DNA from: Candidatus Methanoplasma termitum
GTDB lineage: Archaea > Thermoplasmatota > Thermoplasmata > Methanomassiliicoccales > Methanomethylophilaceae
Length of the DNA: 64,000 nucleotides
Assembly: GCF_000800805.1 (NCBI RefSeq)
Contig: NZ_CP010070.1
Location: 310,001 to 374,000 of the forward strand
Direction: 5' to 3'
Part shown: piece by piece, positions 6,872 to 12,886 of the stretch
Position numbering within the stretch: the stretch's first letter is position 1
Layout: every line of letters begins with the position of its first letter
Notes under the pieces: generated by a model
What the model was told of the DNA's origin: nothing
What the model saw: the letters and a program-made list of their open reading frames with translations, nothing else
Database searches by the model: none
Translations under genes and position numbers: made by a program

Positions 6872-7726
6872 ATGGACAAAGCGCAAGCCGCACAGATGAT
6901 GATCAAGGCACGAGAGGGATATTCAAAGTACAAACTCGAAACCAAGGCCAATGTACGGTTTGTGGATACATCCTACGGCAAGATCCGAGTGTTGGAATAC
7001 GGATTCGACTCAGACGCCGTTAAGCCGCTTTATGTGGACATTCACGGAGGAGGATACTGTATCGGTTCCCCCGAGATGGATGAGGCGATGAACCTTTTCA
7101 TCAGAAGCAGGGCAGATGTGAAGATCATCAGCATCGATTGGCCGAAAGCTCCGGAAAACCCGTATCCGATAGGGCAGGAAGCAACTTATCAGGTGATCAA
7201 GCACTATTCGGACAACGCCAAGAAATACAAGATCAACAAAGATAACATCGGCACAGGGGGTTACAGTTCAGGAGGGAATTTCGCTACTGTCATTCCCATC
7301 AAAGCCAGAGAAAGAGGGGACTTCAGGATAAAGTACCAGATGCTCTGCGTCCCCGGAGTGGACATATCGGGAAACCCTTACGGTAAACCCGGAAGCGCAA
7401 AGGTACTCAGCGGCGAGTTCCTGGAGGCAATATATCTCTGTTATCTGCCGGAACCGAAGTATGGCAAAGAACCGTATGCTTCACCGAGGATCGCGCCGAA
7501 AGAAATGCTGATAGGACAGCCTCCGGCACTTTTGATAGCAGCGGGTCTGGACCCTCTCTACCCACAGTATATCGACTATGCCGCAAGGCTCAAAGATGCG
7601 GGTGTCGAAGTGGAGATACATGATTTCAAGAATGCCGACCACGACTTCTTTTTCGGACAGACCGAGGACAGTATGAAAGCACGCGAGGCCATAGCCAACT
7701 TTATAAAGAAACATTCGCAGGCATGA
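6872..7726 (+). CDS. Alpha/beta hydrolase, hormone-sensitive lipase-like (paralog 1)
   Basis: A 284-residue cytosolic esterase-like protein. It carries the oxyanion-hole motif HGGG (residues 58-61), the nucleophile elbow GYSSGG with Ser132, and a C-terminal Asp/His pair in DPLYPQ and DHDFFF, so the catalytic triad looks complete. Family members hydrolyse short acyl esters; the natural substrate cannot be told. The paralog at 12029 is about 80 percent identical by eye. The two copies bracket the hdrC-hdrB-cooS operon. Confidence 0.85.
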   Translation: MDKAQAAQMMIKAREGYSKYKLETKANVRFVDTSYGKIRVLEYGFDSDAVKPLYVDIHGGGYCIGSPEMDEAMNLFIRSRADVKIISIDWPKAPENPYPIGQEATYQVIKHYSDNAKKYKINKDNIGTGGYSSGGNFATVIPIKARERGDFRIKYQMLCVPGVDISGNPYGKPGSAKVLSGEFLEAIYLCYLPEPKYGKEPYASPRIAPKEMLIGQPPALLIAAGLDPLYPQYIDYAARLKDAGVEVEIHDFKNADHDFFFGQTEDSMKAREAIANFIKKHSQA

Positions 7727-7979: not shown

Positions 7980-8013
7980 GCTACTATCCATATTGTATTG
8001 TTAAGTGTTGTTT

Positions 8014-8508
8014 ATGAAAAAAATTGTATCGGAATTCACAGAGGAACTAGCAGCCAATGGCGGATCTAGCGTCACGTCGTGCTTCCAGTGCGGAACGTGT
8101 ACACTTAAATGTCCGTCTGCAAAGATGATGACCCCGTTACGACCCGGAAATATCATGAGAGCATCTCAGCTCGGACTGAAAGACGAAGCGATATGCGATG
8201 CTCTGTGGCAGTGCACCACGTGTTACACATGCGTGGAGTGGTGCCCGTGTAACGTTCAGGTAGTCGATGTCATCACTGCGCTGAGGAACATGGTGGTTGC
8301 CAATGGGGACATGTACGAAAATCACAAAAAAGTTGCTCAGAGCCTGATAAAGAACGGCCATACTGTCGAGAACAACGATAAGATCAGGGCGCTCAGGAAG
8401 AATCTCGGGCTCCCGGAGAACCCGGAGACGGTGATGGACGACAAGGCGGCGAAAGCAGACTTCGACAAAGTGATCAAATTAACAAAATTCGCTAAGTTGG
8501 TGGACTGA
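8014..8508 (+). CDS. hdrC: Heterodisulfide reductase subunit C-like iron-sulfur protein
   Basis: A 164-residue protein with two full CxxCxxCxxxCP motifs (Cys23/26/29/33 and Cys67/70/73/77), which bind two [4Fe-4S] clusters as in HdrC. HdrC passes electrons to the catalytic HdrB. I use the ATG at 8014; a GTG at 8005 is possible. It overlaps hdrB by one base (TGATG), so the two are translationally coupled. No HdrA or HdrD partner lies nearby; the third gene of the operon is cooS. Confidence 0.9.
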   Translation: MKKIVSEFTEELAANGGSSVTSCFQCGTCTLKCPSAKMMTPLRPGNIMRASQLGLKDEAICDALWQCTTCYTCVEWCPCNVQVVDVITALRNMVVANGDMYENHKKVAQSLIKNGHTVENNDKIRALRKNLGLPENPETVMDDKAAKADFDKVIKLTKFAKLVD

Positions 8509-9359
8509 TGAAAAAATATGCGTTTTTCCTAGGATGCATCGCACCTCTCAGATACCCCGGCATCGAGAAGTCGACTCGAGAGGTGTTCAAGGCGCTCGGG
8601 GTCGAACTGGTGGATATGAAGGGCGCGAACTGCTGCCCTGCCCCAGGCGTGATAAAATCGTTCAGCAGGGCAACGTGGCTGGCCGCGGCCGCAAGGAACC
8701 TCGCACTCGCCGAGAAAGAAGGATTGGATATAATCACCGTGTGCAACGGCTGCTACGGTTCATTATTCGACGCCGCACACGAGCTGCACGAGGACAAAGA
8801 TATGTTGGATGAAGTGAACAAGATCCTCGCTGAAATAGGATTGAAATACAGCGGCGAAACAAAAGTGAGACATTTCGCCGAAGTTCTGTACAAGGATGTC
8901 GGCATCGAGAAGATCAAAAAAGCGGTGAAAAAGCCGGCCGACTACAACGTGGCGGCGTTCTACGGATGCCACTTCCTGAAACCGAGTAAATTGAAACAAC
9001 TAGATGATTCGGAGAACCCCGTCATCCTGGACGAGCTTATCGAGGCGGTAGGCGCTAAAAGCGTGCTCAGAAAACAGAAGGCCAAACCCATATGCTGCGG
9101 TGCCGGAGGAGGTCTCAGATCGCAGTTCGGTGACACGGCATTGAAGTTCACCAGAACGAACTTGGAGATAATGAAGAACGGCGGTGCCGAAATGATAGTC
9201 GACGTGTGCCCCTTCTGTCACCTGCAATTCGATTCGGGCCAGAAAGACAGCGGATACTCATTCCCTGTGCTCCATCTGTCGCAGCTATACGGCTTGGCAA
9301 TGGGGATGAATGCAAAGAACCTCGGCTTGGATGCGCACATCACGCCGGTCAAACTTTAA
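8508..9359 (+). CDS. hdrB: Heterodisulfide reductase subunit B-like protein
   Basis: A 283-residue protein with the two CCG-type domains of HdrB: NCCPAPG (Cys42/Cys43) and PICCGAGGG (Cys196/Cys197), plus the upstream cysteines GC10 and NGCYG. In HdrB these bind the non-cubane iron-sulfur clusters that cleave the CoM-S-S-CoB disulfide. Because several HdrB-like proteins act on other partners, the exact substrate is open. It is coupled to hdrC and lies 29 nt before cooS. Confidence 0.9.
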   Translation: MKKYAFFLGCIAPLRYPGIEKSTREVFKALGVELVDMKGANCCPAPGVIKSFSRATWLAAAARNLALAEKEGLDIITVCNGCYGSLFDAAHELHEDKDMLDEVNKILAEIGLKYSGETKVRHFAEVLYKDVGIEKIKKAVKKPADYNVAAFYGCHFLKPSKLKQLDDSENPVILDELIEAVGAKSVLRKQKAKPICCGAGGGLRSQFGDTALKFTRTNLEIMKNGGAEMIVDVCPFCHLQFDSGQKDSGYSFPVLHLSQLYGLAMGMNAKNLGLDAHITPVKL

Positions 9360-9388: not shown

Positions 9389-11275
9389 ATGACAAAATGG
9401 TCTAATCAAAAAATATGCAAGAGTGCGGACAAGCCACTTGAGAACTTTATTGTGAATCTGCCACAGAACACCGCCTTCCACCGCGTAGATACCCAGAACA
9501 TGAAATGTGAGTTCGGTCTGCGCGGCATCTGCTGCAAACTTTGCGCGAACGGCCCCTGCCGCATAACTCAGGACGCTCCGAAAGGAGTATGCGGTGCGAC
9601 CGCCGATGTGATCGCGGCTCGAAATTTCCTGCGTGCTATAGCAGCAGGTTCCGGATGTTACATACACATCGTCGAGAACGCGGCCCTGAATCTCAGAAGC
9701 ATCGCTCTTGCCAAAGGCGAGCTGAGAGGTAAAAAGGCACTGAACAGCCTTTGTGTCAAGTTCGGCATAAAAGGTAAGAACGATCATGAAAAAGCCCTCA
9801 AAGTAGCGGATGCGGTCCTTAACGACCTCTATAAACCCGACTATGAAAAAATGGTGCTGACGGAAAAGATGGCGTACGCACCGCGCGTTAAACGCTGGAA
9901 AGAGATCGGCATAATGCCCGGAGGGGCCAAGGCCGAGGTGTTCTCTGGCGTCGTGAAAACATCGACGAACCTGAACTCCGATCCCGTACACATGCTGTTC
10001 CATACACTCAGACTCGGCATTTCGACAGGTCTATACGGTCTCACACTGACCAACCTGCTGAATGATGTTGTGATAGGCGAGCCCGAGCTCCGCATGGCGC
10101 CGGTGGGTCTCAATGTGATCGACCCGGATTACATCAACATAATGATCACCGGGCACCAGCACTCGAGGTTCTCATACATACAGGACCGCCTGATCCAGGA
10201 TGACGTTGTAAAAAAGGCCAAGGCCGCCGGGGCGAAAGGCTTCAAGATCGTCGGCTGCACCTGCGTAGGTCAGGATATGCAGCTCCGCGGTGCGCATTGC
10301 ACAAAGATATTCAACGGACACGCAGGCAACAACTTCACCAGCGAGCCGATCCTGGCCACAGGTGCCATAGATGCCGTCATATCGGAATTCAACTGCACCC
10401 TTCCGGGCATCGAACCGATCTGCGATGAGCTCAAGATAAAACAGATATGTGTGGACGCAGTGGCAAAGAAAGCAAATGCCGAACTGAAAGAATTCACATA
10501 TGAGACACGCGAGAAAGCCGTCAATGAGATCATTGACGAGGTCATAGCCGCTTACAAGGCAAGGCGCAAGGTCGTGCCGATGAAACTGCTCCCGGACCAC
10601 GGGAACAAGAATTCTCTGACCGGGGTCAGCGAGGTATCGTTGAAGGCCTTCCTGGGTGACTCGTGGAAGCCGTTGATCGATCTGATCGCAGCGGGAAAGA
10701 TAAAAGGACTGGCCGGAGTTGTCGGCTGCTCCAACCTTCAGTGCGGCGGCCATGACGTGTTGACGGTCGAACTGACCAAACAACTGATCGCAAAGGACAT
10801 ATTGGTCCTGACCGCGGGATGTTCGTCCGGCGGTATCGAGAACTGCGGCCTGATGATGCCGGAAGCGGCGGAATTGGCCGGACCGAATCTTAAAGCGGTA
10901 TGTAAGCAGCTCGGAATACCTCCTGTGCTGAACTTCGGCCCGTGTCTCGCCATCGGACGTTTGGAGATAGTTGCCACAGAGGTAGCCGAAGCACTCGGTG
11001 TGGACCTTCCGCAGCTTCCGCTCGTGTTGTCCGCGGCGCAGTGGCTCGAGGAGCAGGCACTGGCAGACGGTGCGTTCGGTCTAGCGCTCGGTCTCCCTCT
11101 GCACCTGGGGATCCCGCCGTTCGTCACCGGCAGTGATCTGATCGTAAAGGTACTCACCGAAGACATGAAGACCCTGACGGGAGGATATGTGTTCATCAAC
11201 GATGACGCCGTCGAAACGGCTGACATGTTCGAGAAGATAATCCTACAAAAACGCAAAGATCTGGGTCTGCCGTAA
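9389..11275 (+). CDS. cooS: Anaerobic carbon monoxide dehydrogenase, catalytic subunit CooS
   Basis: The 628-residue length is that of monofunctional Ni-CODH, which oxidises CO to CO2. The N-terminal cysteines for the D and B clusters are all visible: Cys40, 48, 49, 52, 57 and 68. C-cluster segments include GCTCVGQD, SEFNCTLPG, GVVGCSNLQCGG, TAGCSSGGIENCGL and NFGPCLAIGR. The last differs somewhat from the common HMGSC form, so this is a divergent clade. No cooF or cooC is adjacent; the upstream hdrCB genes are the likely electron partners. A strong inverted repeat follows the gene. Confidence 0.93.
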   Translation: MTKWSNQKICKSADKPLENFIVNLPQNTAFHRVDTQNMKCEFGLRGICCKLCANGPCRITQDAPKGVCGATADVIAARNFLRAIAAGSGCYIHIVENAALNLRSIALAKGELRGKKALNSLCVKFGIKGKNDHEKALKVADAVLNDLYKPDYEKMVLTEKMAYAPRVKRWKEIGIMPGGAKAEVFSGVVKTSTNLNSDPVHMLFHTLRLGISTGLYGLTLTNLLNDVVIGEPELRMAPVGLNVIDPDYINIMITGHQHSRFSYIQDRLIQDDVVKKAKAAGAKGFKIVGCTCVGQDMQLRGAHCTKIFNGHAGNNFTSEPILATGAIDAVISEFNCTLPGIEPICDELKIKQICVDAVAKKANAELKEFTYETREKAVNEIIDEVIAAYKARRKVVPMKLLPDHGNKNSLTGVSEVSLKAFLGDSWKPLIDLIAAGKIKGLAGVVGCSNLQCGGHDVLTVELTKQLIAKDILVLTAGCSSGGIENCGLMMPEAAELAGPNLKAVCKQLGIPPVLNFGPCLAIGRLEIVATEVAEALGVDLPQLPLVLSAAQWLEEQALADGAFGLALGLPLHLGIPPFVTGSDLIVKVLTEDMKTLTGGYVFINDDAVETADMFEKIILQKRKDLGLP

Positions 11276-11330: not shown

Positions 11331-11507
11331 CGGTCTGACGGGCGGCAGATAATCCCCGATCTGCCGCTCGTTCGGCCGAAAACAAAACATCTTCCCCATT
11401 CGGGGTTTTCTTTGAAACGAATAGAATTCAGAAGTTTTGTGTGCCGACTCAAAGATCGTCTTTCTGTTGAATGACACTTATGCGGTCCATCATAACGTGG
11501 TGTTTTT

Positions 11508-11532
11508 CTGGCGGCATATTCGATGCCGCCAG
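11508..11532. terminator. Hairpin downstream of the TAG-containing small gene
   Basis: CTGGCGGCAT and ATGCCGCCAG form a 10-bp stem. It lies 17 nt beyond the 3' end of the minus-strand gene at 11550-11873. The T tract, however, is on the plus-strand side (TATTTTTTG), so the direction of termination is uncertain. Confidence 0.5.
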
Positions 11533-11549
11533 TATTTTTTGAAACTGTT

Positions 11550-11873
11550 TCAAACGAAACGGAACTCTACATTCCTCTTCAGGGCCAGCCCGCCGCAGGG
11601 TTCGCACACTTTTACGAGTGCCACCGGGATCGGGCAGGCAGCATGCTCGAGGTACTTTGCGCAATCCACGAACAGCGGATTCTCTGTGATCGGCTTTGCG
11701 ATCGCATCGAACACCGTCGTCTCTTTTTGCTATAAGGCCGCGGCAAGCTCCATCACATGCGGGCAGTCGCTTTTTATATTGAACACGACGGTCATCATGT
11801 CCTCCGACTCTGCTTCGATCGTTGTTTTCAGGCTGCATACGCCCGGGTTTACTTCCATCTTGACTTTAACCAT
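11550..11873 (-). CDS. DUF6951-like small protein with an in-frame TAG codon
   Basis: Reading the minus strand from ATG 11873 gives MVKVKMEVNPGVCSLKTT and continues to TGA at 11550, 107 codons. It is interrupted only by TAG at codon 48 (11732-11730), between ALPEALK-like AAAL and QKETTVF. After the TAG the frame goes on with conserved-looking sequence (AKYLEHAACPIPVAL, EPCGGLAL), matching what I remember of DUF6951, a small cysteine-containing family of anaerobes. Either TAG is read as pyrrolysine here, or the gene is a nonsense pseudogene. No other lesion is visible. Family assignment is from memory. Confidence 0.65.
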
Positions 11874-11991
11874 TTTTTCACTTTATCCAGTTCAAGGAGT
11901 CATCCCTATCGAACATATATATCAAAGAGACAAACTAAGATAAATGTTGTGGAAGGGTATTCGGAAATATAGATTCATTCCAAACTCAATA

Positions 11992-12009
11992 AAGTGGCAT
12001 TTATCTATC
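11992..12009. repeat. Shared leader sequence of the hydrolase pair, copy 2
   Basis: Exact 18-bp copy of 6835-6852, about 20 nt upstream of the second hydrolase ATG. Confidence 0.85.
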
Positions 12010-12028: not shown

Positions 12029-12886
12029 ATGGACAAGGAGCAGGCAGCACAGTTAATGAAGAAGATGAGAGACGAGTTCAACAAGTCCCGATTTGTAAGC
12101 ACTGTTGCCAAGGAACGGTATGTGGACACGTCATACGGTAAGATCAGGGTGTTGGAATACGGTTTCGACTCTGATAAAGTAAAGCCGCTGTATGTGGACA
12201 TACACGGTGGAGGATACTGTGTCGGATTCCCCGAGATGGATGAAGAGATCAACCTTTTCATCAAAAGTAAGGTCGATGTAAAGATAATAAGCATCGATTG
12301 GCCGAAAGCTCCGGAAAACCCATATCCGATAGGGCTGGAAGCGACTTATCAGGTCGTCAAACACTATGCCGACAATGCCAAGAAATATAAGATAGACAAA
12401 GAGAACATCGGCACGGGAGGTTACAGCTCAGGAGGGAATTTCGCTACCGTCATACCCATAAAAGCCAGAGAAAGAGGGGACTTTAAAATAAAGTATCATA
12501 TGATATGCGTTCCCGGAGTGGACATATCGGGGGATCCGTATGATAAACCGGGAAGCGACAAGATCCTTACCGGTCAAACCCTTGAGGCAATATATCTTTG
12601 TTATCTGCCGGAACCGAAGTACGGCAAAGAGCCGTATGCGTCCCCGAGGATAGCACCGAAGGAGATGTTGAGGGGACAGCCGCCGATGTTATTGATAGCG
12701 GCAGGTCGGGATCCGCTCTATCCTCAGTATATAGACTATGCTGCTAAACTCAAAGAGGCGGGCGTCGATGTGGAGGTATTCGACTCCAAAAATTCAGATC
12801 ACGACTTCTTCTACAACCATAACGAGGAAAGCGCAAAGGCAAAGGAAGTCCTTGTGAAATTCTTAAAGAAGCACACAAAGGCATGA
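12029..12886 (+). CDS. Alpha/beta hydrolase, hormone-sensitive lipase-like (paralog 2)
   Basis: A 285-residue paralog of the protein at 6872, sharing MDK at the start, the HGGG oxyanion motif, the GYSSGG nucleophile elbow, DPLYPQ and SDHDFF. The active site looks intact. Differences cluster in the N-terminal 30 residues and in the last third (DSKNSDHDFF in place of DFKNADHDFF), which may alter substrate choice. The shared upstream 18-mer indicates a segmental duplication, with the Hdr-CODH operon now lying between the copies. Confidence 0.85.
   Translation: MDKEQAAQLMKKMRDEFNKSRFVSTVAKERYVDTSYGKIRVLEYGFDSDKVKPLYVDIHGGGYCVGFPEMDEEINLFIKSKVDVKIISIDWPKAPENPYPIGLEATYQVVKHYADNAKKYKIDKENIGTGGYSSGGNFATVIPIKARERGDFKIKYHMICVPGVDISGDPYDKPGSDKILTGQTLEAIYLCYLPEPKYGKEPYASPRIAPKEMLRGQPPMLLIAAGRDPLYPQYIDYAAKLKEAGVDVEVFDSKNSDHDFFYNHNEESAKAKEVLVKFLKKHTKA

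Follow-up and report, generated by a model that had tools for sequence, protein, structure and literature searches.

In the methylamine methyltransferases MtmB, MtbB and MttB, tRNA-Pyl decodes UAG as pyrrolysine (Pyl), a residue that is catalytic and conserved in these enzymes. Neutral acquisition of Pyl is an accepted idea for Methanomassiliicoccales (PMC4153887) and for other Pyl genes as well (PMC3639795). M. alvus has 16 Pyl candidates outside the methyltransferases and a TAG stop frequency of 1.6%; TAG stops amount to 11.3% in M. luminyensis, which is without such candidates (PMC4153887). ISO4-H5 has 46 amber-containing genes, methyltransferases among them (PMC5011839). Methanosarcina Thg1 is described as having gained Pyl through neutral evolution (Heinemann et al. 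2009, as cited by PMC8211752).

The case presented here comes from the genome of Candidatus Methanoplasma termitum, a methanogen of the termite gut, consisting of a single closed contig of 1,488,669 bp, of which positions 310001-374000 (64,000 nucleotides, hereafter the window) were analysed as one stretch. A reading of the window made from its letters only (the sequence-only reading) had reported a DUF6951-like gene interrupted by an in-frame TAG and suggested that it could be a new pyrrolysine protein. Its placement of the gene at 11550-11873, with the TAG in frame at codon 48 and the end at a TGA, is correct; the gene lies on the minus strand. The gene, its parts and its surroundings are as follows (window coordinates):

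8005-9359: hdrC- and hdrB-like genes, before cooS
9389-11275, plus strand: neighbouring gene cooS, catalytic subunit of anaerobic CO dehydrogenase (TIGR01702, 748 bits)
11394-12000: segment holding the DUF6951 gene; nothing equivalent stands at the cooS locus in five genomes of the genus
11550-11873, minus strand: DUF6951 gene, 107 codons with the TAG included, then TGA (PF22263 match and translation)
11553-11729, minus strand: codons 49-107, the part after the TAG, with invariant H77, C80 and E91
11730-11732, minus strand: in-frame TAG, codon 48, probable pyrrolysine, at the end of helix 38-48 in the structure model
11733-11873, minus strand: codons 1-47, the part before the TAG, with strands 1-3, helix 1 and invariant G11, C13 and C37
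11915-11921, minus strand: TATA-like TATATAT about 42-48 bases 5' of the ATG, a possible archaeal promoter (judged by eye)

Translation places the start ATG at 11873 and the TGA stop at 11552-11550. The read-through product matches PF22263 (DUF6951) across the TAG and over the whole profile (positions 1-101 of 101), scoring 96.4 bits where the Pfam gathering cut-off is 27, and a whole-genome DUF6951 search recovered the same gene at 95.1 bits with 1 TAG inside the match. Neither a frameshift nor a second internal stop was found, in agreement with the claim that there is no other lesion; the TAG at codon 48 is the sole one. Frame and codon use carry on past the TAG, as had also been stated: the codons after it score 0.23 bits per codon, which is typical of real gene segments (0.24 ± 0.09 for real 59-codon segments; −0.32 ± 0.24 for wrong frames). 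None of the six family-invariant residues, three on each side of the TAG, is missing, and P81, P83 and K88 are likewise retained after it. The gene resembles other DUF6951 members (PF22263) in its full-length match with all invariant residues, but no other match listed has an in-frame TAG. Taking these features together with the comparisons of its two halves described below, we read it as intact, or as relaxed only recently.

The pyl genes, for which the sequence-only reading had proposed a check, are all in the genome. pylS, pylB, pylC and pylD are clustered and each scores above its NCBIfam equivalog cut-off. pylT (70 nt, anticodon CTA, i.e. CUA) lies directly upstream of pylS at 607106-607037, with near-copies at the same place in most of the same-genus loci examined. 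It was missed by ARAGORN and Rfam and recovered via a sequence pattern and conservation within the genus; such a miss is expected because tRNA-Pyl is atypical in Methanomassiliicoccales (PMC3941956). Two mtmB genes are present with one TAG in each, as in other full-length copies from the genus. Given the pyl cassette and the TAG in both mtmB genes, Pyl decoding of TAG is therefore expected in this cell. The codon in the DUF6951 gene would be read by the tRNA-Pyl that serves MtmB, MtbB and MttB in the same genome, but its site is variable, unlike theirs.

TAG use was assessed in a sample of 864 kb (58% of the genome), made up of forty 20-kb stretches and the window, with a purpose-written codon-usage gene caller. 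TAG is the stop of 18 of 727 gene calls (2.5%), compared with 18.4% of intergenic stop triplets in the same sample. The 18 TAG-ended calls include the mid-gene TAGs of the two mtmB genes, the DUF6951 gene and an IS1634 transposase; a minimum of two others are doubtful, lying in repetitive or antisense sequence; the window contributes one TAG-ended call out of 58, which is the first half of the DUF6951 gene. TAG usage here resembles that of M. alvus. If the interrupted genes were products of nonsense mutation, mid-gene TAA and TGA cases would be expected as well. The scan returned 54 of these, most of which look like adjacent-gene junctions (largely judged by eye), and among the 10 least obvious ones scanned no Pfam domain crossed the TAA or TGA stop. 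Convincing mid-gene TAGs are those of the two mtmB genes, the IS1634 transposase and the DUF6951 gene; the numbers are small, and the mid-gene stops that were found with family matches running through them were all TAG. A few real genes do have a TAG stop here, among them one of the FtsZ/tubulin family and one with an AAA_18 match, and full reassignment of UAG is for this reason not claimed. Archaea with a genome-wide 'Pyl code', in which TAG is largely a sense codon, have reportedly been described by Kivenson et al. (Science, 2025). TAG is probably likewise largely sense in this genome, but since some real genes in the 864-kb sample end with it, membership in that group is not established.

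The full pyl cassette, the TAGs of mtmB, the avoidance of TAG stops and the lone lesion make Pyl the likeliest reading of codon 48, and we consider it probable that this TAG is translated as Pyl, giving a full-length protein in which the residue has no special role. A single substitution in the codon of a surface residue would account for the TAG, AAG (Lys) and CAG (Gln) each being one base away from it. Since Pyl-tRNA(CUA) is made in the cell and UAG seldom serves as a stop, the ribosome would put Pyl at UAG 48 and complete the protein of 107 residues. There Pyl would take the place of an ordinary side chain on the last residue of a helix, ahead of a loop whose length varies, and have no catalytic task. 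We infer translation across the TAG, its efficiency and the neutrality of the exchange. Pyl seems to have been captured neutrally here, along the lines predicted for M. alvus and ISO4-H5; a new Pyl-dependent enzyme is not what the case looks like. It shares with the candidates of these two genomes the order, the machinery, a single in-frame TAG, a sense codon in homologs and a small number of TAG stops. It differs from them in family: DUF6951 is absent from the M. alvus table (PMC4153887), and the ISO4-H5 amber genes named in the available portion of that report are other genes and unnamed hypotheticals (PMC5011839). With Methanosarcina Thg1 (PMC8211752) the gene has in common Pyl at a non-essential site, a single-step codon change and no role in methylamine use, but translation has been studied for Thg1 and is predicted for the DUF6951 gene. 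What stands of the proposed new pyrrolysine protein is thus the likely decoding, and not a notable new kind of protein, since the site is variable and such candidates have already been reported in the order. The gene adds a candidate with genome-wide controls to the Methanomassiliicoccales genes in which UAG acts as an ordinary sense codon. Its product is small and has a fold that is modelled with confidence, so that the gene would lend itself well to testing if neutral UAG codons really are translated.

In an alignment of 67 homologs, Lys is the commonest residue in the TAG column (20/67), followed by Pro, Gly and Gln; the loop after it differs in length among homologs, and the region around codon 48, the final residue of its helix, is without invariant residues. 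All relatives examined have a sense codon at the site. No second gene with an in-frame stop was found among about 150 DUF6951 matches listed from 61 genomes of the order, nor any other in-frame stop among about 145 matches to the protein listed from 102 genomes of the family, and the same TAG, which the sequence-only reading had proposed to look for in relatives, was found neither among these matches nor in 72 homologous loci of GTDB genomes. The latter were retrieved by a search with a small homolog alignment; a search of GTDB genome contigs with the single protein sequence returned no relative. Among the 72 loci, L210, which is bacterial, carries an unrelated stop close to its C-terminus. 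Conservation of the TAG in orthologs, by which Pyl proteins are judged, was thus lacking among the matches listed, which lowers the case for a functional Pyl and not that for decoding. As the site is neither conserved nor functional-looking, the TAG is most likely a harmless substitution. A specific function of Pyl in the protein, such as chemical reactivity or the binding of a ligand by its side chain, would suit a small, cysteine-rich protein with an IscU/SufE-like model, but the variability of the site in residue (Lys, Pro, Gly, Gln and others) and length and its location at a helix end among non-invariant residues make it scarcely credible. We also regard as most improbable that the TAG is a switch, yielding a 47-residue fragment when Pyl is lacking and, during methylamine growth, the full protein at a level that tracks Pyl supply. 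UAG decoding does inherently depend on that supply, and bacterial DUF6951 genes occur near RACo corrinoid activators; however, the TAG is not conserved, the sequence 3' of it shows nothing unusual in the way of a PYLIS-like RNA structure (z −0.75), and the avoidance of TAG points to decoding that is constitutive, an argument already made for M. alvus (PMC4153887).

The history of the locus bears on a different alternative. The hdrC-hdrB-cooS cluster is kept in several same-genus genomes (about 81-91% amino-acid identity for hdrB and cooS), and a DUF6951 gene is absent from the cooS locus in 5 of the 5 same-genus loci examined. At the nearest of these (L254), homology stops at 11393 and restarts at 12001 with the second abhydrolase copy. 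Two further DUF6951 genes, both intact, are present in the genome. In the tree, the TAG-bearing copy groups with copies from a different genus (g8) within the family on a branch of 0.89, a length that makes its placement uncertain; Methanomicula labiotermitis and further genomes from termite guts are among the GTDB loci of the g8-like kind. The gene is diverged, with a best identity of 49%. Judging from these sequence comparisons, the TAG-bearing copy is accessory and lineage-specific. Because it is absent at five cooS loci and has two intact paralogs, the single nonsense mutation that the sequence-only reading gave as its alternative stays alive, in the form of a recent mutation in a dispensable gene that is being lost, any read-through being incidental.

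The long branch also speaks for such a loss. So does a profile test on 65 sequences in which the score after the TAG was set against the score before it: the TAG-bearing gene came out lowest, its second half being comparatively the least family-like. Against the reading as Pyl, it also counts that no relative among the matches listed shares the TAG and that a few real genes end in TAG, which leaves a sense reading of UAG throughout the genome unproven. Pairwise identities of the two halves and their branch lengths on a fixed tree, however, were not unusual, and against a gene under decay stand the lack of any further lesion, the normal codon use past the TAG, the retained invariant residues and the restriction of mid-gene stops with matches running through them to TAG. 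The sequence-only reading had named a sense codon in close relatives together with other decay of this copy as evidence against it; the sense codon was found in all relatives examined, and further decay was not found in the gene. Nonsense mutation has thereby become less likely than it appeared and we now consider it an unlikely, though credible, account of codon 48. Far less probable is a sequencing or assembly error behind which the true codon would be a sense codon one base off: a single substitution would suffice for it, but the contig is closed and single, no frameshift lies nearby and substitution errors are rare in finished genomes. Derivation of the Methanoplasma termitum genome from an enrichment (PMC5011839) is a point in favour of error. 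Translation as Pyl with neutral consequences is the reading that we prefer to both.

The structure model of the protein has a mean pLDDT of 96. Its best fold matches in the PDB are IscU and SufE (TM about 0.54, probability 0.98, with an E of 0.05 that is not statistically secure), while a sequence search of the PDB matched no solved structure and hhalign against NifU_N gave probability 0. With no profile support for IscU homology, the resemblance stays a lead, and the model suggests that DUF6951 possibly has an IscU-like architecture. The order of the conserved Cys13, Cys37, His77 and Cys80 is one that we take to recall the ligands of IscU. At bacterial loci (L197, L204 and others), DUF6951 genes have RACo corrinoid activators and proteins of the URO-D family in their vicinity; the neighbours in archaeal relatives include a DUF4443/DUF2111 protein and proteins that we presume to be AtwA-like and McrC-like. 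A scaffold or cofactor-related role of DUF6951 would be our guess. That Pyl has a role of its own in a cysteine-rich IscU-like protein, or that the level of this protein is tied to Pyl supply, is very improbable; if true, it would link Pyl to a cofactor-related process beyond the methylamine methyltransferases.

Several further observations were made in the course of the analysis. The hdrC-hdrB-cooS-DUF6951 block is flanked by abhydrolase genes at 6872-7726 and 12029-12886, whose proteins are 78% identical; locus L254 has one abhydrolase copy only, upstream of hdrC. The IS1634-family transposase (463729-465195, plus strand) has one in-frame TAG, at codon 387, which is crossed by an NF033559 match (36-479 of 483), and on its sequence it is another Pyl candidate; Pyl-containing transposases are known in Methanosarcinales. 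A small ORF at 1013026-1013265 (minus strand) consists of 47 codons, a TAG and 31 codons whose usage is gene-like; a search of the 102 family genomes found no homolog and it is therefore not counted as confirmed. Among the real genes with a TAG stop, the AAA_18 gene (1205283-1205846, minus strand) has its next stop 10 codons on and the FtsZ/tubulin-family gene (1212829-1213677, minus strand) 7 codons on; both proteins would be extended if UAG always meant Pyl here. ISO4-H5 is reported to have an adenylate kinase gene with an amber codon (PMC5011839). A DDE_3 transposase-like ORF of 176 aa occurs three times (L079:15925-16455, L123:3384-3914 and L133:9753-10283), each time ending in TAG, three codons and TGA. 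Finally, a unit of about 495 bases is present at 1252668-1254389 in four nearly identical tandem copies, which appear in the scan as repeated TAG-interrupted ORFs.
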